From contig JAHIPR010000006.1 of the NCBI GenBank assembly GCA_018903015.1, positions 1 through 14,825 on the forward strand: a DNA stretch of 14,825 bases, in the 5' to 3' direction. The DNA comes from a bacterium (lineage in GTDB: Bacteria; Atribacterota; JS1; SB-45; 34-128). Every line of letters begins with the position of its first letter. Positions within the stretch are counted from its first letter, which is position 1. Shown one piece after another: positions 3,079-14,825 of this stretch. The translations under genes and the position numbers were made by a program. The notes under the pieces were generated by a model that was given only the letters and a program-made list of their open reading frames with translations, did not search any database and was not told where the DNA came from.

Positions 3079-3513
3079 ATGGCTAAAATTGGGCGTTTAA
3101 CAATATCATTGTTGATATCTTCGGGAGAAGAAGAAAAGGAATTATTGAAGAAAGTTAACAGTTTAGGCTATAAAGTATGCCAAGGCAAAGCCGGAACCAT
3201 GGATAGCAAAGAAATTATCGCTGCAATAGAAACAACAGCAAAAAGAGAAGGAATTTTTCGTACAGGTTGTTATAGAGAAGAACATGCTTTATATCATACT
3301 ACTTTAAATGCATTAAGAGGTCTATGTAGAGGAGAAATTGGCATTGGTAATTTTTTAAGAACTATAGGGGTAAAATTTGTTGTTTTAAGAGGACCTTTAG
3401 ATACTACACGTGATTTAGGAGAATGGATATCTGTAGGTATTTACGGAACGGTAGGTGCTCCTATTAAGGGATTTGAACATGAGGCAATAGGTTTGGAAAT
3501 TAACCATATTTAA
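3079..3513 (+). CDS. hutP: HutP, histidine-dependent RNA-binding antiterminator
   Basis: HutP binds UAG-repeat sites in mRNA leaders when L-histidine and Mg2+ are present and prevents intrinsic termination; in Bacillus subtilis it controls the hut operon. This 144-residue protein matches B. subtilis HutP (148 residues) along its length, including IGRLTISLL at the N-terminus, YKVCQGKAGTMDSKEIIAAIET, YREEHALYHTTLNALRG, LRTIGVKFVVLRG and GTVGAPIKGFEHEAIGLEINHI at the C-terminus. H69, H73 and H134 line up at a constant offset of four with the Mg-coordinating H73, H77 and H138 of the Bacillus protein, and T95 and E133 line up with the RNA-contacting T99 and E137. GGGAAGTGAT at 3061-3070 provides the ribosome site. 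No hutH, hutU or hutI is visible nearby. Two leaders with HutP-type UAG spacing lie at 3594 and 8348, so these are its likely targets. Confidence 0.93.
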   Translation: MAKIGRLTISLLISSGEEEKELLKKVNSLGYKVCQGKAGTMDSKEIIAAIETTAKREGIFRTGCYREEHALYHTTLNALRGLCRGEIGIGNFLRTIGVKFVVLRGPLDTTRDLGEWISVGIYGTVGAPIKGFEHEAIGLEINHI

Positions 3514-3550
3514 CAGTTTTATTTATATTGTAAGCATGTATAAATTAAAT

Positions 3551-3579
3551 TTTACAGAATATAAAAATCGTGTTATAAT
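3551..3579 (+). promoter_or_regulatory. Sigma-70-type promoter for the UAG leader/hisC unit
   Basis: TTTACA at 3551-3556 and TATAAT at 3574-3579 are separated by exactly 17 bases, matching the housekeeping consensus at all but one position. Transcription would begin near 3586 and run straight into the UAG leader and terminator, giving either a short RNA of about 70 nt or read-through into the aminotransferase. Confidence 0.75.
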
Positions 3580-3593
3580 AACAAAAATTAAAT

Positions 3594-3628
3594 AAAGACC
3601 CATAGCCATTAGATAATAGGGGGAGAGA
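3594..3628 (+). promoter_or_regulatory. Putative HutP binding leader, copy 1
   Basis: UAG triplets at 3603-3605, 3610-3612 and 3617-3619 are separated by exactly four bases each (CCAT, ATAA), which is the UAG-N4-UAG-N4-UAG geometry known for HutP sites. The third triplet abuts the 5' arm of the terminator that follows. Bases 3593-3612 are identical to 8348-8367, and AATAGGGGG recurs in both. The CCC at 3599-3601 could pair with the G run 3619-3623 as a competing hairpin. HutP bound here would be expected to stop the terminator forming and let transcription reach the aminotransferase. Site identity rests on geometry, duplication and adjacency to hutP. Confidence 0.75.
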
Positions 3629-3656
3629 TATTTTATATAACTCTCTCTTTTTTTAT
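3621..3656 (+). terminator. Intrinsic terminator in the hisC leader
   Basis: GGGAGAGA (3621-3628) pairs with TCTCTCTT (3642-3649) using two G-U pairs, with a 13-base AT loop, and runs into a T7 tract and TTATTTTA. It lies about 120 bases before the aminotransferase start, directly behind the UAG triplets, which is the layout of an attenuator. Confidence 0.8.
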
Positions 3657-3776
3657 TTTAATTTAGAAATTACCAGATTTTAAATAAAAAGAAGTATAGT
3701 AAATAATTTAATAAATATTTAATTTGTTGCTTATTTTAATTGTATTACTTTTAATAGACAGAAAGGTGCATAAGAG

Positions 3777-4877
3777 ATGGGGGAAGAGAAGACCTTGTTA
3801 CGAAAAGGAATATTAGACCTAAAACCTTATATTCCTGGCAAACCAATTGAAGAGGTCAAACGAGAATTAGGTTTAAAAGAAGTTATAAAATTAGCTTCCA
3901 ATGAGACTTCCATAGGCCCCTCGCCTTTAGCGGTAGAGGCCATAAAAAAAGAAGTAGAAAATATTAATCTTTATCCCGAAGGTTCAAGTAGACTCTTAAG
4001 AGAAAAAATAGCTCATAAATTAAAAATTGATAAAGAGATGATAATTGTCGGTAATGGTGCGGATAATATTATTACTCTCGTAGGGAGTGCTTTTATTAAT
4101 GAAGGTGATGAAATAATTACTGGAGAGATCACTTTTCCCGCTTATGAAACTATAACCAAAATTATGGGAGGGAAAGCAATTCCTGTAAAATTTAAGGATT
4201 ATACTTATAATTTAGAGGAGATTGTTCATCAAATAAATGAGAGAACTAAACTTATTTTCATATGTAATCCTAATAATCCAACAGGGACAATAGTTAACAA
4301 AGAAGCAGTAGATAAATTTATGAGACAAATTCCTGAAGATATAGTTATAGTATTTGATGAAGCCTATTATGATTATGTGGAAGATAAAAATTACCCCGAC
4401 AGCCTCTCTTATGTTTTAGAGGGAAAGAATATCATCATTCTTCGTACTTTTTCTAAAATAGCAGGGATAGCAGGAGTTCGAATAGGTTATGGTATAGCTA
4501 AACCAGAATTGATAGGATATTTAAGGAAGGTAGCAAGTCCATTCCCTGCAAATCGATTAGCTCAGGTTGCAGCCGCAGCTTCTTTAGATGATGAGGAACA
4601 TCGTAGGAAAGTTTTAAGATCAAATCAAGAAGGAAAAAGATATTTATATAGAGAGCTAAAGAAATTAGGATTTTTTTATGTTCCAACAGAGGCAAATTTT
4701 GTTTTTATTGATTTGAAAGAAGACGCCGAGGTTATTTTTGAAAAATTATTAAAAGAGGGAGTAATTATTCGACCGGGGAAAACCTGGGGTTGCCCTAACT
4801 TTATTCGAGTTACTATAGGGACTATTAATGAAAATCGAAAGTTTATCCAAGCTCTTAAAGAGGTATTAAATTCTTAG
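3777..4877 (+). CDS. hisC: HisC-family aminotransferase (histidinol-phosphate/aromatic type)
   Basis: Class I/II PLP-dependent aminotransferase of the histidinol-phosphate aminotransferase family. In order: KLASNET near residue 38, YPEGSS near 66, NGADNII near 93, the NPNNPTG loop at 164-170, FDEAYYDY with D194 and Y197, the PLP lysine K227 in TFSKIAG, R235 in GVRIGYG, and the C-terminal RPG/FIRVTIG segment. The 366-residue length is normal. A ribosome site GAAAGGTG (3761-3768) precedes the ATG. No other his genes flank it. The attenuator upstream resembles a HutP target, so if HutP antiterminates on histidine, expression rises with histidine, which is the wrong direction for biosynthesis. 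I therefore suspect a catabolic histidine or aromatic aminotransferase making imidazolepyruvate-type ketoacids. Ordinary HisC or aromatic aminotransferase remains possible. It ends in TAG. Confidence 0.87.
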   Translation: MGEEKTLLRKGILDLKPYIPGKPIEEVKRELGLKEVIKLASNETSIGPSPLAVEAIKKEVENINLYPEGSSRLLREKIAHKLKIDKEMIIVGNGADNIITLVGSAFINEGDEIITGEITFPAYETITKIMGGKAIPVKFKDYTYNLEEIVHQINERTKLIFICNPNNPTGTIVNKEAVDKFMRQIPEDIVIVFDEAYYDYVEDKNYPDSLSYVLEGKNIIILRTFSKIAGIAGVRIGYGIAKPELIGYLRKVASPFPANRLAQVAAAASLDDEEHRRKVLRSNQEGKRYLYRELKKLGFFYVPTEANFVFIDLKEDAEVIFEKLLKEGVIIRPGKTWGCPNFIRVTIGTINENRKFIQALKEVLNS

Positions 4878-5065
4878 TGTTCAGAAGACATCAAAACTAA
4901 AAAGTCGCTGACCAGCGGTGAGCAAATCTTTTTATCTTGGAAAATCTAAGAGCTTTTATACTATAAATAGAACTATTGAGAGTTTGCAGCAAAAAAAATG
5001 GGATAATTATTACTGGCGATTAACTTGAAAAAGAAAAACTTACTATAAGAATATTTTAATTTTTT

Positions 5066-5100
5066 GAAAAAAAAAGAAGGATTTTTAAACTTTTTGTCGA
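5066..5100 (+). repeat. A-rich/GAAG/T-rich upstream repeat, copy B
   Basis: An A9 run followed by GAAGGATTTTTAAACTTTTT (5076-5095) and GTCGA. It shares the GAAGGATTTTTAAA core with copy A and differs downstream. It lies about 110 bases upstream of the ABC importer operon. Confidence 0.58.
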
Positions 5101-5114
5101 ACCTGATAAGTAGA

Positions 5115-5141
5115 TGTGAAGAATAAAACTAAATTCTTACA
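5115..5141 (+). promoter_or_regulatory. Inverted repeat in the importer leader
   Basis: TGTgAAGAAT (5115-5124) and ATTCTTACA (5133-5141) form a nine-pair stem with one bulged G and an eight-base loop. There is no adjacent long T tract, so it may be an operator or a leader hairpin; which one cannot be decided from sequence. Confidence 0.35.
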
Positions 5142-5212
5142 AAAAGATCTATTTTCTTTCTTGTTTTATTTAGCCAAAATAAAAAATCAAATATGGAAGG
5201 AGGTGAAAAAGA

Positions 5213-5983
5213 ATGAGAAATAGAAAATTAGTATTAGTGCTTATTTTTTCTCTATTGGTTATGGTTAGCGTAGGGAGCATTAATTTGTTAGCTGCTGAAA
5301 AGAAAGTATATATTAGTGGTATGGATGCTGATTATCCACCCTTTACCTATGTGGATGAAAAGGGCCAACCTGCTGGATTTGATGTAGAATGTCTGAATTG
5401 GATTGCCCAGGAGATGGGGTTTGAAGTTAAACATCAACCTACTGCCTGGGATGGAATATTTACCAGTTTATTAGCCAAAAAGATTGATATGGTTTATTCT
5501 GGAACATCTATTACCCCCGAGAGGTTGGAAAAGGTAGATTTTAGCATACCGTATTGGGAAATTAATCAGGGACTTTGTGTTCGCGAAGATTCAGACCTTA
5601 ATATTATCGCTGCTTTGAGTGGTAACTATAAAGTAGGGAGCTCTAGAGGTTGTACAGCAGCTATGTGGATTGAAGATCACCTGGTAAAACCTGGCATACT
5701 TCCAAAAGATAACCTAAAATTGTATGAGAGTTTTTCTATAGCAGTCAAAGATTTATTAAACGGAAGAATAGATTCAGCTATGATGGATGATGTAGTAGTG
5801 GAAGATGCCATTAGAAAAGGGCAAGCTTTGAAGATTGTAGGGATAATTAAGACCGGTGAAAAATACGGAGTGGCAGTAAGAAAAGAAGATAAAGAATTAA
5901 AAGCACTGCTTGATGAAGGAATAACTAAATTGAAAAAGTCAGATAAATGGGATGAATTGATTATTAAATATTTTATTGAATAA
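5213..5983 (+). CDS. Polar amino acid ABC transporter substrate-binding protein
   Basis: Family 3 solute-binding protein (SBP_bac_3), which captures an amino acid outside the membrane and delivers it to the permease pair. Residues 1-28 form a type-I signal peptide: basic MRNRK, a hydrophobic core to about 26, and a likely cut after the LLAA. There is no lipobox cysteine, so the protein would be free in a periplasm and not a lipoprotein. The mature part begins with YISGMDADYPPFTYVDEKG, then AGFDVE and SGTSITPERLEKVDFS, where R104 is the usual ligand-carboxylate arginine. Length of 256 residues is typical. A near-perfect ribosome site, GGAGGTG at 5199-5205, lies seven bases before the ATG. It heads an operon with two permeases and an ATPase. 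Histidine or a histidine derivative is an attractive ligand given hutP nearby, but the binding pocket does not prove it. Confidence 0.92.
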   Translation: MRNRKLVLVLIFSLLVMVSVGSINLLAAEKKVYISGMDADYPPFTYVDEKGQPAGFDVECLNWIAQEMGFEVKHQPTAWDGIFTSLLAKKIDMVYSGTSITPERLEKVDFSIPYWEINQGLCVREDSDLNIIAALSGNYKVGSSRGCTAAMWIEDHLVKPGILPKDNLKLYESFSIAVKDLLNGRIDSAMMDDVVVEDAIRKGQALKIVGIIKTGEKYGVAVRKEDKELKALLDEGITKLKKSDKWDELIIKYFIE

Positions 5984-5995
5984 CAAACATAGTAA

Positions 5996-6045
5996 GGGTG
6001 GAGGAGTACCTTCTTAACTTTACATTATTCCTCCACCTCATTTTT
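5996..6045 (+). terminator. Intercistronic terminator between binding protein and permease
   Basis: GGTGGAGGA (5997-6005) and TCCTCCACC (6029-6037) are perfect nine-base arms, extended inward by about three pairs including one G-U, followed by TCA and TTTTT. Such a partial terminator after a binding-protein gene fits the common excess of binding protein over membrane components; it could also protect the upstream mRNA from decay. Confidence 0.8.
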
Positions 6046-6070
6046 GGTGATAAAGTGAGAAAAAATAATT

Positions 6071-6754
6071 ATGAATGAAAATTTTATGGTAATCTATCAG
6101 GCTCTTCCTTATATGCTTAGAGGTTGTATAGTAACTATTGGATTGGTAGGAGGAGCTTTAGGTTTAGGGTTTATAATAGGGATTCCTATGGCCGTAGGGC
6201 AGGTATATGGAAATAAATATATCTCCGGTTTAATATCTTTTTATGTCTGGTTTTTTAGGGGGCTTCCGGTTTTAGTCCTTCTTTTTCTTTTTTATTTTGG
6301 ACTATTTTCTCTTATAGGGCTTAATTTATCTGCTTTTACCGCTGCCATCCTGGTCTTAGGGCTAAGAAGCTCTGCCTATCAATCTCAAATATTTCGGGGA
6401 AGCATTCAATCATTAAACGAGGGACAAATGTTAGCTGCTCAATCCTTAGGAATGAAGAAATATGAAGCGATTTTATTTATAATTTTACCCCAAGCTTTGC
6501 GGATTTCTATCCCCGGTTGGTCTAATGAATACGCCATTCTCTTAAAAGATTCAGCAGTCACTTATGCTATAGGGGTAATAGAAATATTAACCAGAGCGAA
6601 TTTTATCGCTACCAGGACTTACAGGCCTATGCCTATTTTCCTTATTTGTGCAGTAATTTTTATTATTTTAACTTATGGCGGAGTAAAAGTTCTTGATCTT
6701 TTAGAAAATAAAGTAAAAATCCCTGGCTACGGAGAGAGGAGAGGTGAAATTTAA
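6071..6754 (+). CDS. Amino acid ABC transporter permease (HisM/GlnP type), first
   Basis: Integral membrane subunit of the His/Glu/Gln/Arg/opine ABC importer family. It is 227 residues with about five hydrophobic segments (roughly 12-41, 55-80, 85-100, 150-175, 185-212). The cytoplasmic EAA coupling loop is clear at about 122-148 (AAQSLGMKKYEAILFIILPQ, then RISIPGW). The N-terminal GCIVTIGLV and the WFFRGLPVLV segment are family hallmarks. The gene follows the binding-protein terminator and is five bases from the ATPase gene. The ribosome site is weak (GTGAGA about 10 bases upstream), consistent with lower expression than the binding protein. It likely pairs with the second permease at 7533 as a heterodimer. 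Confidence 0.9.
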   Translation: MNENFMVIYQALPYMLRGCIVTIGLVGGALGLGFIIGIPMAVGQVYGNKYISGLISFYVWFFRGLPVLVLLFLFYFGLFSLIGLNLSAFTAAILVLGLRSSAYQSQIFRGSIQSLNEGQMLAAQSLGMKKYEAILFIILPQALRISIPGWSNEYAILLKDSAVTYAIGVIEILTRANFIATRTYRPMPIFLICAVIFIILTYGGVKVLDLLENKVKIPGYGERRGEI

Positions 6755-6759
6755 ACAAG

Positions 6760-7530
6760 ATGCAGAATAATAAAGATATTATTGTATTGCGTGTAGAAGA
6801 TATACATAAAAAATATGGAAATGAAGAAATATTAAAAGGAGTTTCTTTTGAGATTAAAAAAGGAGAAACTAAAGTTATTATTGGTCCTTCCGGAAGTGGG
6901 AAAAGCACCCTTCTTCGCTGTATCAATCAATTGACCATTCCGAACAAGGGACGAATTTGGTTAGGGGACGAAGAAGTAACACATAATAAGAAGGATATTA
7001 ATCGGTTTCGCCAGAAAATAGGCATGGTTTTTCAGGAATTTAATTTATTTGATCACTTAACCGCTTTGAAAAATGTTGAAATAGGTTTAGTTAGGGTAAA
7101 AAAGATGGATAAGAAAGATGCTAAAGAAAAAGCAATAGAAGAATTAAAGCAAGTTGGTTTGGAAGAACAAGCCAATTTATATCCTGCACAACTTTCCGGA
7201 GGACAAAAACAAAGAGTTTCTATAGCCAGAGCATTAGCTATGGATCCCAATGTAATGCTTTTTGATGAGCCTACTTCTGCTCTTGATCCTGAGCTGATTG
7301 GAGAAGTATTAGAGGTAATAAAAAAATTAGCTCTTAGCGGAATGACTATGGTAGTGGTAACCCATGAAATGGGTTTTGCCCGTTCGGTAGCAAATGAAGT
7401 AATATTTATAGAAAAAGGAAAAATAATAGATAAAGGTCCTCCTTATAAACTTTTTACTAATCCTGATAATGAGCGAACCAAGAAATTTCTTTGTAAAATA
7501 ACTGAACTTTATGGAAAGTCGGAAGAATAA
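6760..7530 (+). CDS. Amino acid ABC transporter ATP-binding protein
   Basis: ATPase subunit that powers the importer (GlnQ/HisP class). All nucleotide-binding motifs are present: Walker A GPSGSGKST at 42-50, Q-loop at Q92 in MVFQEFNLF, signature LSGGQKQR at 145-152, Walker B VMLFDEP with D169 and E170, the D-loop SALD, and the switch histidine H202 in VVVTHEMGF. Length of 256 residues is normal. It sits between the two permease genes with gaps of five and two bases, so the three are translated from one message. GGAGAGGTG inside the end of the first permease gene probably serves as its ribosome site. Confidence 0.95.
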   Translation: MQNNKDIIVLRVEDIHKKYGNEEILKGVSFEIKKGETKVIIGPSGSGKSTLLRCINQLTIPNKGRIWLGDEEVTHNKKDINRFRQKIGMVFQEFNLFDHLTALKNVEIGLVRVKKMDKKDAKEKAIEELKQVGLEEQANLYPAQLSGGQKQRVSIARALAMDPNVMLFDEPTSALDPELIGEVLEVIKKLALSGMTMVVVTHEMGFARSVANEVIFIEKGKIIDKGPPYKLFTNPDNERTKKFLCKITELYGKSEE

Positions 7531-7532
7531 AA

Positions 7533-8195
7533 ATGGGCGATATTACTTTTATTCGAGATATACTTTTACCCCCTTTATTAGAGGGAACAGTAGTTACTAT
7601 TAAATTGATAGTTTTTTCTATTCCACTTGGCCTGCTTTTGGGAATTTTAATAGCTATTGGCCGGGTGTATGGAAACAAGTTTATTTCTTCTTTTTGTAAT
7701 GTCTACACATTATTTTTTCGTGGCAGCCCTTTATTGGTACAGCTTTTTATTATCTATTATGGTCTTCCTTCTATTGGTATCTTTTTCTCTCCTTTTGCTG
7801 CAGCAGTTGTAGGTTTTATCTTTTGTAGCGGAGCATATCATTCAGAATATATAAGAGGAGCTATTCAATCGATAAAAACTGGGCAGATGATGGCTGCTGA
7901 AGCCCTGGGGATGACCAGAGCTAAAGCTGTCTTATATATTATTCTACCCCAAGCCTTAAGAAGGGCTATCCCGGGCTGTTCCAATGAAATTATTTATTTA
8001 GTAAAATATTCTTCCCTAGCTTTCATGGTTACCTGTATGGAACTTACCGGGGTAGGAAAAATTATCGCTTCTCGTTATTTTGAATTTACAAAAGTTTTTA
8101 TTGTAGTAGGAGTAATATATCTATTACTGGTTTCTGTGGTTACCAAGTTTCTTGATATGTTAGAGAAAAAATTAAAAATTCCAGGATTAGAATAG
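7533..8195 (+). CDS. Amino acid ABC transporter permease (HisM/GlnP type), second
   Basis: Second membrane subunit, 220 residues, related to the first permease but clearly distinct. It has the same layout: GTVVTIKLIVFSIPLGLLLG near the start, LFFRGSPLLVQLFIIYYG, the EAA loop AAEALGMTRAKAVLYIILPQ and RRAIPGCSNE, then two terminal hydrophobic segments. The start is two bases after the ATPase stop, indicating translational coupling. A system with two different permeases resembles HisQM. It ends in TAG, and no clear intrinsic terminator follows directly. Confidence 0.9.
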   Translation: MGDITFIRDILLPPLLEGTVVTIKLIVFSIPLGLLLGILIAIGRVYGNKFISSFCNVYTLFFRGSPLLVQLFIIYYGLPSIGIFFSPFAAAVVGFIFCSGAYHSEYIRGAIQSIKTGQMMAAEALGMTRAKAVLYIILPQALRRAIPGCSNEIIYLVKYSSLAFMVTCMELTGVGKIIASRYFEFTKVFIVVGVIYLLLVSVVTKFLDMLEKKLKIPGLE

Positions 8196-8278
8196 AGTTG
8201 ATAAAGGGAATATAAAATTTTAAAAAAATAACTAAAAGAATAAATAGCAAACAAAATCATATACGCTACCCATTTTTT

Positions 8279-8318
8279 TAAAAAAAGAAGAATTTTTAAA
8301 ATTTATATAGTATATTAA
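8279..8318 (+). repeat. A-rich/GAAG/T-rich upstream repeat, copy C
   Basis: An A run followed by GAAGAATTTTTAAAATTTAT (8287-8306) and ATAGTATATTAA. It matches copy A at nearly every position apart from a few G/A and A/T changes. It ends about 30 bases before the second UAG leader, so it may carry or overlap the promoter of the corrinoid operon. Confidence 0.58.
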
Positions 8319-8347
8319 GTTAAAAATAATACATGTAAATCTTATAT

Positions 8348-8380
8348 TAAAGACCCATAGCCATTAGGCAATAGGGGGTG
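8348..8380 (+). promoter_or_regulatory. Putative HutP binding leader, copy 2
   Basis: UAG triplets at 8358-8360, 8365-8367 and 8372-8374 have exact four-base spacers (CCAT, GCAA). The first 20 bases equal those of copy 1 at 3593. The third UAG lies inside the 5' arm of the terminator stem, so protein bound to the three triplets would be incompatible with the terminator. ACCC (8353-8356) can pair with GGGT (8376-8379) as an alternative hairpin. This places the whole RACo-corrinoid operon under the same control as the aminotransferase, if HutP is the ligand-binding factor. Confidence 0.75.
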
Positions 8381-8407
8381 AACGAGATCCATCCCCTATT
8401 TTTATTT
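8370..8407 (+). terminator. Strong intrinsic terminator in the corrinoid operon leader
   Basis: AATAGGGGGTG (8370-8380) pairs with CATCCCCTATT (8390-8400) over 11 positions with one G-U pair and a nine-base loop, followed by TTTTTATTTA. It lies 110 bases before the first gene of the operon and not after a gene, so it acts as an attenuator. Confidence 0.88.
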
Positions 8408-8432
8408 ACGAAGATTACAAGGTTTTAATTTG

Positions 8433-8519: not shown

Positions 8520-10286
8520 ATGAAAATAAAAGTTTATTTTACCAAAGAAGAATTATATGTTTATTTAAATTATGGAGAAACAGTGTATGATGCTGCGATA
8601 AAGGCGGGGATTGACATAAATGCAAATTGTGGTGGAAAAGGTAAATGTGGGAAGTGTAAGGTTAAAATTATTAAGGGTAAAACGAACAAGATAACAAATA
8701 ATGAAATTTCTTTACTGTCTATTCAAGATGTTAAAAAAAATATAAGATTATCTTGTTGCACTAAAATATTCGATGATATATATGTTGAAACATTAGATAA
8801 AATGAGTTCATGTAAGATGCTTACAGAAGAGAATAGCAAAGTAATAAAATTAGATCCTTTTGTCAAGGTATATAATTTAAAAGAAAATTTATTTAATGAA
8901 AATGCTCGATCTTTTGAAGAGCAGATAATAAAAAATTGCAAATGTGAAATAAAGAAAATTAGTAATGAGGCATTAAGGAAATTTAATAATTTAAATAAAA
9001 TAAGTAAAAAATGTGTGATATATTGTTCCGAAGAAGAGATTATTGATATAGATGCATGCGGGAAAAATAGTTGTTATGGAGTAGCCTTTGATATTGGGAC
9101 CACTACTATAGTGGGATATTTAATAGATTTAAAAAGCGGAGAAAAAAGAGATGTAGGGGCAATGCTTAACCCGCAAATTGTTTATGGCGATGATGTAATA
9201 ACCAGAATAGAATACTCTCAAAGAGATAAAGGATTGGAAAAATTAAATTTATCTGTAATTAATGCTTTAAACAAAATAATTTTAAACTTATGTAAATCAC
9301 AAAATATTTCGTATGATAAAATATATGCATGTTCTATAGTTGGAAATACTTGCATGACCCATATATTTATGGGTATACCCGTAGAGAGTTTAGGAGAATA
9401 TCCTTATTTGCCCATTTTTACAAAATTTAAAAAGATAAAGGCGAAAGAAAGAAAAATAAAAATAAATGAAGAAGGATATATATATATTCTTCCTAATGTC
9501 TCAGGTTTTATTGGTGCAGACATTGTTTCTGATTTAATTTCTAGCGAAACATATAACACTAATAAAAATTTTTTAATTATTGATATTGGTACCAATGGGG
9601 AGATTGTTTTAGGGAGTAAAGGACATATTATTTGTAGTTCTTCTGCTGCCGGTCCTGCTTTTGAGGGAAGCAGGATAGAATTGGGAATGCGGGGACAGAT
9701 AGGTGCTATAGAAAGATTTGATCCTGTAACTTTTGAGGTAAAAGTAATTGGAAATACTATACCTCAAGGTATTTGCGGTTCAGGTCTTATAGATATAATA
9801 TCAGGTTTAATTCAAATTGGGGCTGTAGATAAAAAAGGTACTTTTACCGGTAAATTTAAAGAAAGAATTTTTAAAAAAAATAATATTAAATGTTTTAAAA
9901 TATATGAAAAGCAAAATAAAATTATTTATATTACCCAAAAAGATATCAGAGAATTTCAGATGGCTAAATCAGCTATTTCTACAGCCATAAAATTGCTTTT
10001 AAAAGAAATGGATTTAAAAATAACAGATTTAGATGAAATTTTAATAGCCGGTGCTTTTGGAAATTATATGGATATTGAAAACGCAATAAGTATTAATATA
10101 ATTCCTAAAATAGATTTAAATAAAATAAAAGGTATTGGTAATGCAGCAGGAGCAGGAGCAATCAAGGCATTATTATCCCGAGATTTTAGAGATAAGTGTA
10201 ATGAATATGCTGAAAAAATGAAAAATATTAATTTAACTTCTTATAAAGAATTTTACAAAATGTTTATTAATGATATAAATTTTTAG
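8520..10286 (+). CDS. RACo-type corrinoid protein reductive activator (2Fe-2S plus ASKHA ATPase)
   Basis: Uses ATP hydrolysis and a low-potential electron to return inactive Co(II) corrinoid to Co(I), repairing corrinoid methyltransferases. The N-terminal ferredoxin domain (about 1-95) has a plant-type 2Fe-2S site: C37, C43, C46 and C79 (next to C80). The ASKHA/DUF4445 part begins with FDIGTTT (190-196) and continues through VGNTCMTHIFMG, IDIGTNGEI, AAGPAFEG, GICGSGLIDI, LIAGAFGNY and GNAAGAGA. The 588-residue length is slightly below typical RACo. The archaeal activator RamA instead carries C-terminal 4Fe-4S clusters, which are absent here. The linker and C-terminus are rich in Lys, Asn and Ile, and the gene looks more AT-rich than the upstream blocks. 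It is the first gene after the UAG attenuator, and the last codon before the TAG is Phe. Confidence 0.93.
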   Translation: MKIKVYFTKEELYVYLNYGETVYDAAIKAGIDINANCGGKGKCGKCKVKIIKGKTNKITNNEISLLSIQDVKKNIRLSCCTKIFDDIYVETLDKMSSCKMLTEENSKVIKLDPFVKVYNLKENLFNENARSFEEQIIKNCKCEIKKISNEALRKFNNLNKISKKCVIYCSEEEIIDIDACGKNSCYGVAFDIGTTTIVGYLIDLKSGEKRDVGAMLNPQIVYGDDVITRIEYSQRDKGLEKLNLSVINALNKIILNLCKSQNISYDKIYACSIVGNTCMTHIFMGIPVESLGEYPYLPIFTKFKKIKAKERKIKINEEGYIYILPNVSGFIGADIVSDLISSETYNTNKNFLIIDIGTNGEIVLGSKGHIICSSSAAGPAFEGSRIELGMRGQIGAIERFDPVTFEVKVIGNTIPQGICGSGLIDIISGLIQIGAVDKKGTFTGKFKERIFKKNNIKCFKIYEKQNKIIYITQKDIREFQMAKSAISTAIKLLLKEMDLKITDLDEILIAGAFGNYMDIENAISINIIPKIDLNKIKGIGNAAGAGAIKALLSRDFRDKCNEYAEKMKNINLTSYKEFYKMFINDINF

Positions 10287-10304: not shown

Positions 10305-10982
10305 ATGAAATTAGTTAGAAATATAAAAGTAACACCCAATAAAGAGGAAATTCTAATAAGGATGGGTTATCCTTCTGATAAAAAAGTCAAAAATAAAAAA
10401 ATAATTAATTTGGTGGAAGAAAATATAAATAATAGCAAAAAATATTCTGATAAAATTTTAAGCGCCTTAAACTTTTATAAAATTAATAAAAAAGAAAAAT
10501 GGATAAAAAAATTAGACAATTCAGGTGAGAGTTATTCCTATTGTTGTTTTTATATTGTAACAGCGGGGCAAATCATACAAGATGAGATACATTCATTGTT
10601 AGAAAATCATAAAATTTTAGATGCTTTAGTTTTAGACGCTATGGCTTCTTATTTTGTTGAGTATGCTTCTACATTTGTGCAAAATAATATTATTAAAAAG
10701 GCTAAAAAAATAAAATTGCATCCTCATAAAATTATATTCCCCGGGAACAAACTTCCTATTGATTTACAAAAGGTAATATTTAAAAAAATAGATGCTTCCA
10801 AAATAGGAGTTTCATTATCTGATAATTGTTTAATGATTCCCCTAAAAACAATTTCATCTATAATTTTATTTAATGAAAATGAAAATGGTAGCTATATAAT
10901 AAAACCATTTGATATATGTACATTTTGTAATTTTAGAAAAAGATGTTCTTATTGTAAAATAAAGAACATAAAAAATAATTAA
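10305..10982 (+). CDS. Stand-alone MetH activation-domain-like protein
   Basis: 225 residues resembling the AdoMet-binding reactivation domain of cobalamin-dependent methionine synthase, found alone beside many corrinoid methyltransferase systems. Support: the helix LDAMASYFVEYASTFVQ, then HKIIFPGNKLPIDLQKVIFKKIDASKIGVSLSDN (shown here in pieces: FPGNKLP, IDASKIGVSL) and CLMIPLKTISSII, which follow the order of the MetH domain's PGYG, Q-IF-LDA-IGV and M-P-KS-S-I features. The C-terminus adds a cysteine cluster C205-X2-C208-X5-C214-X2-C217 that could bind a metal or Fe-S cluster. It starts 18 bases after the RACo stop with only a weak AAGG ribosome site. Together with RACo it probably keeps the corrinoid protein active. 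The N-terminal 70 residues are Lys/Asn-rich and unassigned. Confidence 0.78.
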   Translation: MKLVRNIKVTPNKEEILIRMGYPSDKKVKNKKIINLVEENINNSKKYSDKILSALNFYKINKKEKWIKKLDNSGESYSYCCFYIVTAGQIIQDEIHSLLENHKILDALVLDAMASYFVEYASTFVQNNIIKKAKKIKLHPHKIIFPGNKLPIDLQKVIFKKIDASKIGVSLSDNCLMIPLKTISSIILFNENENGSYIIKPFDICTFCNFRKRCSYCKIKNIKNN

Positions 10983-11105: not shown

Positions 11106-11759
11106 ATGAAAAAAAGTGAAAGGCTGATACAATTTATTAAAGACGGTGATGATTCAAGTGCATTAAATTTAGTAAAGGAAATACTTAGCGAAATAAGCCC
11201 AAGGGAAATAATAGGTGATTTAACTACGTTTATGAGAGAGTTAGGGGGAAAATTTGAAAAATTCGAAATATTTCTTCCTGATTTAATGGTAGCAGCTGAT
11301 ACTTTTATGGAAGTAATGAAGGTATTAGAACCTTTGCTTCAAAAAGATGAAAAAAAGGAAAAAGTAAAAATAGTATTAGCTACCGTGAAAGGTGATATTC
11401 ATGAGATAGGGAAAAATATTCTGGCTATAGTATTAAAATCTAATGGTTATGAAATTATTGATGCAGGAAGAGATGCTGATCCTCTTGATATTATTAAAGC
11501 TGCGGAATCAAATAATGCTTATCTGATCGGGCTTTCTGCTTTAATGACTACTACGATGCCTAGCCAAAAAGAATTAATAGATATATTGCAGGACCAAGGG
11601 AAAAGAAGTAAATTTAAAATATTGGTAGGCGGTGCTCCGGTATCTGCAGAATGGGCTTCACAAATAGGGGCGGATGGATATGCAGAAGATGCGTTTAAAG
11701 CAGTAAAATTAGTTAATGAAATTGAAGAAAAATTAAAAAAGAAAGTAGAGGATAAATAA
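11106..11759 (+). CDS. Corrinoid (B12-binding) methyl carrier protein, MtmC/MtbC-like
   Basis: Carries the methyl group between two methyltransferases on a bound corrinoid. An N-terminal helical cap (about 1-85) is followed by a Rossmann-like B12 domain with DIHEIGKNI, where H99 is the lower cobalt ligand (DxHxxG), then SAL in GLSALMTT and the GG of LVGGAPVS. The 217-residue length is normal for the dimethyl/monomethylamine corrinoid protein family. AAAGGAGG at 11091-11098 is a near-perfect ribosome site seven bases from the ATG, suggesting high expression compared with the two activator genes. Its TAA is directly followed by the ATG of the methyltransferase (no gap), the usual mtmC-mtmB style pairing, so these two proteins are almost certainly partners. 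Confidence 0.94.
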   Translation: MKKSERLIQFIKDGDDSSALNLVKEILSEISPREIIGDLTTFMRELGGKFEKFEIFLPDLMVAADTFMEVMKVLEPLLQKDEKKEKVKIVLATVKGDIHEIGKNILAIVLKSNGYEIIDAGRDADPLDIIKAAESNNAYLIGLSALMTTTMPSQKELIDILQDQGKRSKFKILVGGAPVSAEWASQIGADGYAEDAFKAVKLVNEIEEKLKKKVEDK

Positions 11760-13139
11760 ATGTCGGTTTTAAGAATGTGGGAAATAGTAAAAAGAGCCGA
11801 AACCGGAGAATTTATAGAAGAGAATAAATATATTTCAAAACGTTTTATCCCTAATTTACAAAGAGTAGTAAAAAAATATGACATAAAATATGATCCCCAG
11901 AATGTTATTACTTCAGATGATGATTTAATAGACAGGGTTTGGCAAGCGGCTTATGAATTTTTTTTAGAGACCGGAGTATATCATCAAGATTCTCACCGAA
12001 TAATAAAATTTTCTAAACAAGAAATTGAAGAGGCTTTATTCAATGCTCCTTCAGAATATATGGTAGGCGAAGGAAGTGATTTAAGAAGATTTGGTTCGAG
12101 AAAACCAGAAGATGAAAGACGCCCCTTTATGTTACTAAGCCCAGATATAACCTATGATGAACATGATCATTTTCTTGCCTGTGTAGCATTTTTAAAAGAA
12201 CCAACCTTAGATGGTCTATGTGCTCCTATTTTAGAAGAATTTATGGGTAGAAAAATAAAATCTCCAACTCCTTCTGAATTAGGTGGTTGTGTTATGCACG
12301 CTATGAGTTTAAGGGAAGCGGCAAGGCTTGTTGGAAGACCCGGAGTTTGGTTTGTGGCAGTGGGGACAGCTGAATCGGATATGGCTCAAATAGGTGTAAG
12401 CAATGATGAATGGGGGGTAAGACATACTGATGGAAGGTTATCTCCTATTATAACAGAATTTATGACTAATAATTCTATGTTAAACAAAGCAGTTCATTAT
12501 CAAATGAATGGGAATATAAGTGGATTATTGGCAGGAGCAATTTATGGAGCTTATGCAGGAGGTGCAGAAGGAACTGCAGTTCTTCAGACAGCATATAATA
12601 TATTAGGTTTAATGATGCATTTTTGTCAATTTACTCAAAATTTCCCTTTTCACATGCTTTATGGTTCTAATACAGGAAGAGAAATGTTATGGATAGTAAG
12701 TACCTTCAGTCAGGCAGTAGCAAGAAATACTCATCTGGTTATGACTTCTAATGGGTTTGCCAATGCAGGCCCTGGGACAGAGATGCTATTTTATGAAACC
12801 GCTGCTCATGCTATAGCTTCTGCGGTTGCTGGAAATAATATATGGGATATTGCCCCCGCAAGAAATAAAGTACACAATCATGGTACACCTCTGGAATGTA
12901 GATTTGCAGCAGAAGTTGCTCATACTGTTACTAAAAGGAAGATGAGAAGAAAAGAAGCAAATGAGATAGTTGATAAGTTACTTTTAAAATACGAAAAAGA
13001 TATACCTACTGCTTCAATGGGAAAACCATTCCAAGAACTTTATGATATGAAAGAGCTTATCCCGATAGCAGAATATCTTGATCAATATAATAAAATAAAA
13101 GAAGAAATTGCTAAAATGGGGATTGATTTTATTTATTAG
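11760..13139 (+). CDS. MtmB-family corrinoid methyltransferase without pyrrolysine
   Basis: 459 residues, matching methanogen monomethylamine methyltransferase MtmB (about 458) in length and along its sequence: LETGVYHQDSHRIIKFS, GRKIKSPTPSEL, GRPGV, AYAGGAE, YGSNTGREML, AGPGTEM and the C-terminal MGKPFQELYDMK. MtmB transfers the methyl group of a methylated amine to its corrinoid protein and uses pyrrolysine, encoded by in-frame UAG. Here the frame is uninterrupted, and the residue aligned to pyrrolysine is V199 (GTG at 12354-12356). By my from-memory alignment the active-site Glu is kept (E270), whereas the Gln and Tyr near pyrrolysine become N331 and F333. A changed substrate is therefore likely, as in the non-pyrrolysine MttB relatives. 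It ends in TAG followed in frame by a second TAG two codons on. No ribosome site stands out beyond GAGG in the preceding gene, so coupling is expected. Confidence 0.9.
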   Translation: MSVLRMWEIVKRAETGEFIEENKYISKRFIPNLQRVVKKYDIKYDPQNVITSDDDLIDRVWQAAYEFFLETGVYHQDSHRIIKFSKQEIEEALFNAPSEYMVGEGSDLRRFGSRKPEDERRPFMLLSPDITYDEHDHFLACVAFLKEPTLDGLCAPILEEFMGRKIKSPTPSELGGCVMHAMSLREAARLVGRPGVWFVAVGTAESDMAQIGVSNDEWGVRHTDGRLSPIITEFMTNNSMLNKAVHYQMNGNISGLLAGAIYGAYAGGAEGTAVLQTAYNILGLMMHFCQFTQNFPFHMLYGSNTGREMLWIVSTFSQAVARNTHLVMTSNGFANAGPGTEMLFYETAAHAIASAVAGNNIWDIAPARNKVHNHGTPLECRFAAEVAHTVTKRKMRRKEANEIVDKLLLKYEKDIPTASMGKPFQELYDMKELIPIAEYLDQYNKIKEEIAKMGIDFIY

Positions 13140-13227: not shown

Positions 13228-14199
13228 ATGAAATTAATAGTAAGAAAAAATACCAAAGGAATCCCTGTAGCACCCTTGATGGGCGCACCCGGGATACAGT
13301 TAACTAATACAAAATTAAAACAAAATTTAGAAAATGCCCATATCCAATTTGATAGCTTAGAAAAATTGTATAATAAATTTAAGCCTGATGCTATGTTTAA
13401 TTTGATGGATTTAACTGTAGAAGCTGAGGCTTTAGGAGCCGGAGTATTACAACCTGAAAACGAACCCTTTTCTGTAATAAATCATCCAATAAAAAATAAA
13501 GATGATCTTAAAAAAATGTCCCTAATTAAACCTGATGTGGAAGGTAGAATGAAAGTATTTTTAGATGTTATTTCTTATATGAAAAATTCTTTTGATTGTA
13601 AAGTAGTTTCATATATCATTGGCCCTTATACTTTAGCCGGTTTATTGAATGGTACTAGTGAAATTATAAAAAAAGTAATTAAAGATCCAGAATTTTTAAA
13701 AGAGTTATTGAGATTTACTACAGATTTTATTTATGCTTACGGTAATAATATAATCGATAGAGGCGCAGATGCTTTATGTATTTTAGAGCCCACTGCTGCA
13801 ATGTTATCTCCCCAACAATTTGTAGAATTTTCCGGGGAATATACAAAAAAGTTAATTTCGAAATGGAATATACCCAGTATATTGCATATATGCGGTAATA
13901 CTTCTCATCTTATTCCTAAGATGGTTGAAATTCATCCCGCAGGAATTAGCCTGGATTCTTTAGTTGATTTAAGCAAAATTTCTCTTCTGGTACCAAATGA
14001 AATTGCGATTATTGGTAACATAGATCCGGTGAAGGTCATGGCTTATGGAGACAAAGAGCTATTAAGAAAAAAAGTGTTATTACTTATAAAACAGATGAAA
14101 AAAAATAATAATTTTATTTTAAGCACTGGTTGCGATTTGCCCCAAGATACTAACCTTGAAAATATAGAATTGTTTATAAATTTAGCGCGAAATAGTTAA
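13228..14199 (+). CDS. UroD-family MtaA/MtbA-like methylcorrinoid methyltransferase
   Basis: Uroporphyrinogen-decarboxylase superfamily methyltransferase expected to take the methyl group from the corrinoid protein and pass it to a thiol or other acceptor. The zinc motif H-x-C...C is present: H220 and C222 in ILHICGNT, and C302 in LSTGCDLP, a spacing close to that of archaeal MtaA. The family motifs IGPYTLAG, ILEPTA and GNIDP are also visible. The 323-residue length is typical. GTGAGGT at 13212-13218 is the ribosome site. Methanogen relatives methylate coenzyme M; whether this organism makes coenzyme M is unknown, and tetrahydrofolate or another acceptor is possible. It is the last gene of the operon, with a hairpin terminator downstream. 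Confidence 0.87.
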   Translation: MKLIVRKNTKGIPVAPLMGAPGIQLTNTKLKQNLENAHIQFDSLEKLYNKFKPDAMFNLMDLTVEAEALGAGVLQPENEPFSVINHPIKNKDDLKKMSLIKPDVEGRMKVFLDVISYMKNSFDCKVVSYIIGPYTLAGLLNGTSEIIKKVIKDPEFLKELLRFTTDFIYAYGNNIIDRGADALCILEPTAAMLSPQQFVEFSGEYTKKLISKWNIPSILHICGNTSHLIPKMVEIHPAGISLDSLVDLSKISLLVPNEIAIIGNIDPVKVMAYGDKELLRKKVLLLIKQMKKNNNFILSTGCDLPQDTNLENIELFINLARNS

Positions 14200-14270: not shown

Positions 14271-14291
14271 AACAATAAAGAGAAAAATGTA

Positions 14292-14539
14292 ATGGAAAAA
14301 ATTCTGCTTCCTTATGGAAAAGAAAAAATATCCATTTAATAGCAAAATGTAAAGAAAAAGCAAAAATTTATTTAATTTCACAGGGAATTAATGATAGAGA
14401 GAAAATAAGAATGGGGTTATTGCCGGCAAAATCAGCTCAAAATATCGTAGATAGTATATTAAAAGAGTATGGGGAAGAATCAAAGGTACTGGTTTTGCCA
14501 ACTGCTTCTATTGCCCTTCCCCTTCTTGAGGAGGTATGA
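14292..14539 (+). pseudogene. LarA/DUF2088 (lactate racemase-family) gene with its middle deleted
   Basis: Family members are about 420 residues. Here only both ends survive. The ATG at 14292 opens MEKILLPYGKEKISI, which matches the usual N-terminal strand of this family, and stops at 14337. From about 14336, in another frame (+2 relative to the first), comes LIAKCKEKAKIYLISQ, then a GLLPAKSAQ segment and KVLVLPTASIALPLLEEV to the TGA at 14537, which resembles the family's C-terminal 65 residues. The tail frame has no start codon before an internal ATG at 14411, and its upstream stop is at 14276. The junction implies loss of roughly 1 kb plus a frame change. The intact promoter-like box and the overlap with iorA suggest the deletion left iorA expressed. 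An assembly collapse is the main alternative. Confidence 0.72.
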
Positions 14540-14541
14540 AT

Positions 14542-14825
14542 TTGAAAAAATTATTAACCGGAAATGAGGCGATTGCCGAAGGGGTAATTGAATCAGGGGT
14601 AGAAGTAGTCACCGGATATCCGGGAACTCCCTCAACGGAGGTAGTTCTGACTCTGTTGTCTCAGTCAAAAGATCTGGGAATACATGTAGAGTGGAGTACA
14701 AACGAGAAAGTTGCTTTCGAAATTGCCGCTGGTGCTGCCTGGGCTGGGAAAAGAGCCCTGGTCACCATGAAAATGTCGGGAGTGAATGTGGCTGCTGATT
14801 CATTGGCTTCTATTGCTTATAGTGG
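14542..14825 (+). CDS. iorA: Indolepyruvate:ferredoxin oxidoreductase alpha subunit, 3'-truncated
   Basis: IOR oxidatively decarboxylates aryl pyruvates to acyl-CoA while reducing ferredoxin; the alpha subunit carries thiamine diphosphate and a C-terminal ferredoxin domain (outside the window). The visible 94 residues are diagnostic: LLTGNEAIAEGVIESG, VTGYPGTPSTEV, VEWSTNEKVAFEIAAGAA, KRALVTMKMSGVNVAAD. GAGGAGG at 14528-14534 is seven bases before the TTG at 14542, whereas the in-frame ATG at 14536 would leave one base, so TTG is the better start. That ATG overlaps the TGA of the larA remnant as ATGA. A ketoacid oxidoreductase beside a possibly histidine-induced aminotransferase hints at imidazolepyruvate as a substrate, but only as inference. 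Confidence 0.93.
   Translation, partial: MKKLLTGNEAIAEGVIESGVEVVTGYPGTPSTEVVLTLLSQSKDLGIHVEWSTNEKVAFEIAAGAAWAGKRALVTMKMSGVNVAADSLASIAYS

Follow-up and report, generated by a model that had tools for sequence, protein, structure and literature searches.

The 14,825-nucleotide stretch of DNA analysed here (contig JAHIPR010000006.1 of an Atribacterota bacterium; called the window below) carries a gene for an antiterminator of the HutP family and two copies of a short leader, in which regularly spaced NAG triplets adjoin a predicted terminator. The first leader precedes a gene for a HisC-like aminotransferase and the second precedes a corrinoid methyltransferase operon. In this Atribacterota lineage, HutP antitermination has probably shifted from Hut to a regulon for histidine fermentation by transaminase and oxidoreductase. 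All genes noted in the window, from the CoA-transferase gene through the start of iorA, lie on the + strand. The regulator gene and the putative control elements are arranged as follows:

3079..3513, + strand: hutP, HutP-family RNA-binding antiterminator, 144 amino acids (PF09021, NF002838)
3551..3579, + strand: promoter-like TTTACA-17-TATAAT, 11/12 consensus bases, a sequence match only
3593..3654, + strand: leader 1, with NAG triplets at 3603, 3610 and 3617, terminator stem 3618-3650 and T-run
8348..8409, + strand: leader 2, with NAG triplets at 8358, 8365 and 8372, terminator stem 8370-8400 and T-run

HutP and the two leaders of the window

The window protein is a genuine, full member of the HutP family, scoring 90.7 bits against Pfam PF09021 (cut-off 25) and 181.7 bits against the NCBIfam equivalog NF002838 (cut-off 155), and it is identical to Bacillus subtilis HutP (1wmq) in 71 of 142 aligned columns. 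Residues H69, H73 and H134, named as conserved in the initial annotation, are indeed invariant in 27 close relatives aligned (27 chosen among the at least 120 matches listed). They align with H73, H77 and H138 of B. subtilis, which we take to be the metal/histidine ligands, and their equivalents are kept in the window protein and in all seven HutP-bearing genomes described below. The other positions checked (55, 69, 88, 98, 99, 130, 132 and 137) are also kept, and position 56 differs in one sequence. Among the matches listed, the nearest source-named relatives include Candidatus Atribacteria and one labelled Nealsonbacteria; the relatives' loci that were located in genome contigs belong to Atribacteria or Atribacterota in 5/5 cases.

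The two leaders share 20 identical bases (3593-3612 and 8348-8367), and both contain TAG-N4-TAG-N4-TAG, at 3603-3619 and 8358-8374, with no further copy in the window. These features had been pointed out in the initial annotation, together with the placement of the array directly before or within a terminator stem, which is borne out by the third triplet touching the predicted stem in both leaders. Two matches to a shared 19-mer (at most three mismatches) occurred in 0/200 shuffles. Both predicted terminator stems are followed by a T-rich stretch, and the leader 2 stem (8370-8400, -19.6 kcal/mol, z -3.86) was equalled by none of 200 shuffles. The near-consensus promoter-like element ends 19 nucleotides before the CCCA of leader 1 and would yield a very short leader; the promoter of leader 2 is poor (9/12 bases). 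A leader model, R1, gives the two leaders 31.5 and 29.1 bits and the rest of the window at most 3.5 bits, both sites being in the R1 training set. An Rfam scan of the window returned nothing at gathering score, the two leaders giving only sub-threshold matches.

Leader conservation and co-occurrence with HutP

Co-occurrence was assessed in 50 Atribacterota genomes, of which seven contain HutP and 43 do not; the leaders of the window lie outside the 50. Of 14 control genomes, only B. subtilis was positive for HutP. Model R1 was built from 15 leaders, 11 of them from the 50 genomes, and at 19 bits or more it detects a leader in 7/7 HutP genomes and in 0/43 HutP-less genomes. Eleven sites score 25.9-32.2 bits and a twelfth 19.2, all in the seven HutP genomes, and the best HutP-less score is 16.8. 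With kinship ignored, the odds of this presence/absence pattern are 1 in C(50,7), about 1e-8. Because R1 had been trained on the 11 genome leaders, a model R2 was built from four leaders outside the 50 genomes, namely the two of the window and two from Bacillota. The top eight R2 matches all fall in HutP genomes and cover 7/7 of them; at E ≤0.3, R2 finds 13 sites, comprising 10 of the 12 known sites and three in HutP-less genomes. The plain pattern CCCANAGN4NAGN4NAGGGG occurs in 6/7 HutP genomes and 5/43 others, and a reversed control pattern gave two matches. Among the matches in HutP-less genomes (five genomes with the pattern; R1 at most 16.8 bits), no leader-plus-terminator was seen at seven inspected loci, the rest being judged by score. 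The scan of relatives that the initial annotation had proposed thus returned the co-occurrence with hutP that it expected.

The leader consensus is CCCA-NAG-N4-NAG-N4-NAGGGG followed by a terminator. The four-base spacing recurs in homologous leaders, as expected from the initial annotation, and all triplets of 15 leaders have AG, but their first base is variable: AAG and GAG occur beside UAG, and exact UAG as a rule was dropped in favour of NAG. Most spacer positions are variable, as are the first and third N. NAG-N4-NAG-N4-NAG is present in 13 of 14 Atribacterota-type leaders, and the G050 site C289:25352 has a five-base first spacer. In folds computed from the third triplet onwards, pairing of the terminator starts within that triplet in 16/16 leaders. 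Forcing the three NAGs to stay unpaired costs 15 leaders 2.3 to 11.9 kcal/mol, a crude figure from constrained folding that excludes the G050liv row. T-runs were read from the sequences directly, since automated tail counts took in later hairpins and were unreliable. Isolated extra NAG matches at -77 (G001b), -76 (Niallia) and +55 (G005), as well as a fourth overlapping NAG in nine leaders, were judged to be chance or part of the G-rich stem.

Plasmids of Peptoclostridium (annotated) and Niallia (histidase confirmed, 717.5 bits, cut-off 539.15) have this leader, too, placed between hutP and hutH and with a strong terminator. In the Atribacterota, hutP has a leader of the same orientation at most 860 nucleotides downstream in 6/8 cases (window and seven genomes). 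The Bacillus hut system and the one described here therefore have in common the HutP family with its metal/histidine ligands, the four-spaced NAG triplets beside a terminator and the position of the leader downstream of hutP. They differ in that no hut genes are controlled here and in that a genome can have more than one leader (as many as four in G050). In addition, there is one NAG cluster instead of the two clusters, 20 nucleotides apart, that the accessible part of PMC7430163 gives for the B. subtilis hut leader. The two-cluster arrangement seems specific to B. subtilis and not general among HutP leaders.

Genes behind the leaders

The genes that follow leader 1 in the window and iorA at its 3' end are listed below:

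3777..4877, + strand: HisC-like class I/II aminotransferase, first gene past leader 1 (TIGR01141, 348.5 bits, cut-off 276.55)
5213..8195, + strand: polar amino acid ABC (ATP-binding cassette) transporter, with genes for a solute-binding protein (5213-5983), two permeases (6071-6754 and 7533-8195) and an ATPase (6760-7530)
14536..14823, + strand: iorA, first 96 codons, running off the window

The ABC transporter genes would be co-transcribed from leader 1 despite a gap of 335 nucleotides after the HisC gene. Fourteen leaders were considered (two in the window, two each in G001 and G003, one each in G002, G004, G005 and G049, and four in G050), and 9/14 have HisC and/or IorA downstream in the same orientation; the window and each of the seven genomes have at least one such leader (8/8). 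The initial annotation assigned an aminotransferase gene and the corrinoid methyltransferase operon to the regulon. Both do stand behind leaders, but the set is wider and takes in transporters, IorAB, AcdAB, molybdenum hydroxylases and a HisD-family dehydrogenase. IorB and AcdA come after IorA, and in G001, G004, G005 and G049 they are succeeded by AcdB and molybdenum hydroxylase genes; in G001 the latter genes come after a branched-chain-type ABC operon. For AcdA and the hydroxylases, a domain scan was made in G004, and the other genomes were assigned by BLAST similarity. In G001 and G003, leaders also precede a HisD-family gene and a sugar-type ABC operon, and two of the G050 leaders precede NMT1-type/DctM transporters with UbiD decarboxylases, while another precedes a branched-chain-type binding protein.

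Leader-type HisC (at least 69% identity) is present in 5/7 HutP genomes and 0/43 others. In G034, which lacks HutP, the order ABC-solute-binding protein-LarA-IorAB-AcdAB-Xdh is kept with no leader in the stretch, and the best R1 score genome-wide is 14.8 bits. Histidase (HAL) was detected in 0/50 Atribacterota genomes and urocanase in 0/7 HutP genomes, 3/43 HutP-less genomes being positive for the latter; controlled histidase and urocanase genes, as in a hut operon, were not found in the HutP genomes. Single gene absences are soft because the genomes look like metagenome-assembled genomes (MAGs) for which completeness values are not given.

Side observations on these loci concern G001 and G003, in which the HisD-family paralogue behind the leader stands with the sugar-type ABC transporter and an alcohol dehydrogenase (L026 6635-13157, L028 962-7459), and G050, in which contig C289 (L034, L074) bears its four leaders on 25.6 kb, two with UbiD/transporter targets that have no obvious histidine role. 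Xanthine-dehydrogenase-like molybdenum hydroxylase genes adjoin AcdAB in G004, G005, G049 and G001 (loci L030 15999-19763, L031, L042 and L077).

Leader 2 is followed by the genes of the corrinoid methyltransferase operon, which sits between the transporter and iorA:

8520..10286, + strand: RACo-type reductive activator of corrinoid proteins
10305..10982, + strand: B12-dependent methionine synthase activation domain, weak match (21.5 bits, below the Pfam cut-off of 25)
11106..11759, + strand: corrinoid protein, MtbC/MtgC-like
11760..13139, + strand: MtmB-family methyltransferase without pyrrolysine, open frame
13228..14199, + strand: MtaA/MtbA-like (URO-D) methylcobamide methyltransferase
14290-14535: larA (lactate racemase family) remnant that retains both ends without the central part, flanked by the MtbA-like gene and iorA

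The MtmB protein matches Pfam PF05369 over its full length and has 431 relatives at E ≤0.001 among 7998 scored candidates. As in MtmB monomethylamine methyltransferases and the pyrrolysine (Pyl)-less MtqB, genes for a corrinoid partner, an activator and an MtbA-like protein adjoin it. In contrast to these enzymes, it is tied to a histidine-type leader and has Val199 in the pyrrolysine column, no UAG-encoded pyrrolysine being present. The larA remnant lies in the 336-nucleotide gap between the methyltransferase genes and iorA. In G002 and G034 larA precedes iorA, and in G004 it lies just upstream of hutP-leader-iorA; the gene is intact in all three. Because the larA ends remain and larA adjoins iorA elsewhere, the methyltransferase set appears to sit within an older transporter-larA-iorA operon.

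Proposed mechanism and competing explanations

In the proposed mechanism, ligand-bound HutP, most likely with L-histidine and a divalent metal, would grip NAG-N4-NAG-N4-NAG in the short leader. The third NAG would form the foot of the intrinsic terminator, and binding would keep the hairpin open and allow RNA polymerase to continue; without ligand, transcription would stop in the leader. HutP and the hairpin would compete, because the first paired base falls in the third NAG throughout. This geometry agrees, with one cluster in place of two, with PMC7430163, in which HutP is reported to keep the terminator from forming. A transporter, the HisC-like aminotransferase, IorAB and an ADP-forming acyl-CoA synthetase would replace hutH, hutU and hutI in the regulon, and histidine would be converted via imidazolepyruvate and imidazoleacetyl-CoA to imidazoleacetate with the formation of one ATP. 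The xanthine-dehydrogenase-like molybdenum hydroxylases of some genomes could act next, on imidazoleacetate. Histidine fermentation in Thermococcales, with aminotransferase TK0548 and imidazolylacetyl-CoA synthetase, follows the same logic of aminotransferase, 2-oxoacid:ferredoxin oxidoreductase and ADP-forming synthetase, and the imidazoleacetate-specific acyl-CoA synthetase is an archaeal precedent, according to the accessible parts of PMC9986279 and PMC3942289. The system described here differs in being bacterial, in a single operon and, as far as the sequence indicates, HutP-controlled. What the sequences show directly is the family of HutP, the leaders with their conservation, the way in which these track HutP, and the order of the genes, whereas RNA binding, the ligand, antitermination, co-transcription and the substrates are inferred.

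Several observations weigh against this reading. The triplet array alone is not very rare, as two or more matches occurred in 1/200 shuffles, and the leader 1 stem (3618-3650, -12.2 kcal/mol, z -1.16) is weak, 30/200 shuffles folding equally well. Such figures would suit ordinary terminators or repeats with a chance NAG array, the HutP target lying elsewhere, an explanation with hardly any credence in view of the strict co-occurrence with HutP, the identity with leaders found between hutP and hutH, the absence of the leader from the HutP-less G034 operon and the lack of an Rfam family at gathering score. Further points on the same side are that G001a is without a T-run past the stem and G050liv has only three T, and that the invariance of AG arises partly by construction, because the collecting patterns partly demanded it. 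The ninth R2 match, at 15.6 bits, is in HutP-less G028, next to 15.7 bits for the G004 site; two more HutP-less matches come after it, and 2/12 known sites are missed. No second NAG cluster recurs consistently across 17 leaders, among them the hut leaders of Peptoclostridium and Niallia, and only 2/4 Bacillota plasmid hut leaders fit: the Priestia leader scores 16 bits with other spacing, and the Cytobacillus plasmid has no site at hutP, its only match (12.7 bits) lying elsewhere. Position 81 of B. subtilis HutP is Glu in 5/5 hut-linked HutPs and Asn, Asp, Ser or Gly in 8/8 Atribacterota HutPs (N77 in the window; on the helix of the B. subtilis ligands H73 and H77, i+8), and the ligand could therefore differ from histidine. 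The same switch would then respond to the compound that the pathway ferments, a modified imidazole such as imidazoleacetate or methylhistidine, or else an aromatic amino acid, which is rather improbable. In Pyrococcus, aromatic amino acids are handled by enzymes of the IOR type (PMC3942289), and IorA scores just under the IOR cut-off; on the other hand, the three metal/histidine ligands and the other checked positions are kept, bar position 56 in one sequence, and contact of position 81 with the ligand is conjectural.

The gene content likewise holds points against a HutP-controlled histidine fermentation. Leader-type HisC is missing from G002 and G004, and leader-type IorA (71-73% identity) occurs in 4/43 HutP-less genomes; in G033, G036 and G038 it ends at contig ends, where an upstream leader could escape detection. 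A further IorAB-AcdA operon in G003 has no leader, so that not every copy is under HutP. IorA and AcdA score below the IOR and acetate-CoA ligase cut-offs, so that their substrates are putative, and comparison with PDB relatives gave no substrate for either the solute-binding protein or HisC. A regulon for histidine biosynthesis instead of breakdown would account for leader HisC scoring above the hisC equivalog cut-off and for the leader HisD-family gene of G001 and G003, the G001 protein passing the hisD cut-off. This explanation is very improbable: IorAB-AcdA and transporters come after HisC with no other his genes, in both G001 and G003 at least one further HisD scores higher (543-573 versus 492 bits), and leader-HisC is unlikely to be biosynthetic in G005, G049 and G050 because HisD was not found there, a soft absence in MAGs. 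As for the methyltransferase operon, the second leader copy would put it under the same HutP control, and it perhaps supplies methylated histidine, a substrate that would make sense of the operon position. In full, this would be an anaerobic route not described before: the Pyl-less MtmB would demethylate hercynine or an N-methylhistidine with the corrinoid protein, the product would be transaminated and then oxidised by IorAB, and imidazoleacetate would be released from CoA with ATP formation, free histidine inducing all steps via HutP; this scheme is possible but doubtful. There is an appreciable possibility that the operon is unrelated to histidine and serves, for example, a quaternary amine (choline, tetramethylammonium), having been inserted by chance with a leader-bearing promoter. 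The first and sole function demonstrated for a Pyl-less MtmB, as given in the available part of PMC13044021, is on tetramethylammonium and choline, another is induced with dichloromethane according to the accessible text of PMC9768040, and the MtmB homologue found in one other of the 50 genomes is 31% identical with no leader in view. That genome, however, is one of the seven with HutP, and the window operon has its own leader copy and lies inside the histidine operon beside the larA remnant.

To our knowledge, HutP is known only from hut. A literature search, with most subscription papers beyond reach, returned no title or abstract that deals with HutP control of genes other than hut, with a HutP regulon of Atribacterota or with corrinoid demethylation of hercynine. 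With a multi-leader regulon in genomes without detected histidase, HutP would be a portable sensor of histidine, and the leader sequence could serve as a tag by which histidine genes are traced in uncultured bacteria; in uncultured Atribacterota, the regulon points to uncharted catabolism of histidine, perhaps also of methylated histidine. IorAB would be a testable candidate for the 2-oxoacid:ferredoxin oxidoreductase of histidine fermentation, called unknown in the accessible part of PMC9986279, and methylated histidine would be a testable substrate candidate for Pyl-less MtmB.

The remaining genes of the window lie upstream of hutP:

1-2777, + strand: CoA-transferase III, cyclase and nitrilase-family genes

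The cyclase and nitrilase genes, 93-94% identical, also adjoin hutP in G002.

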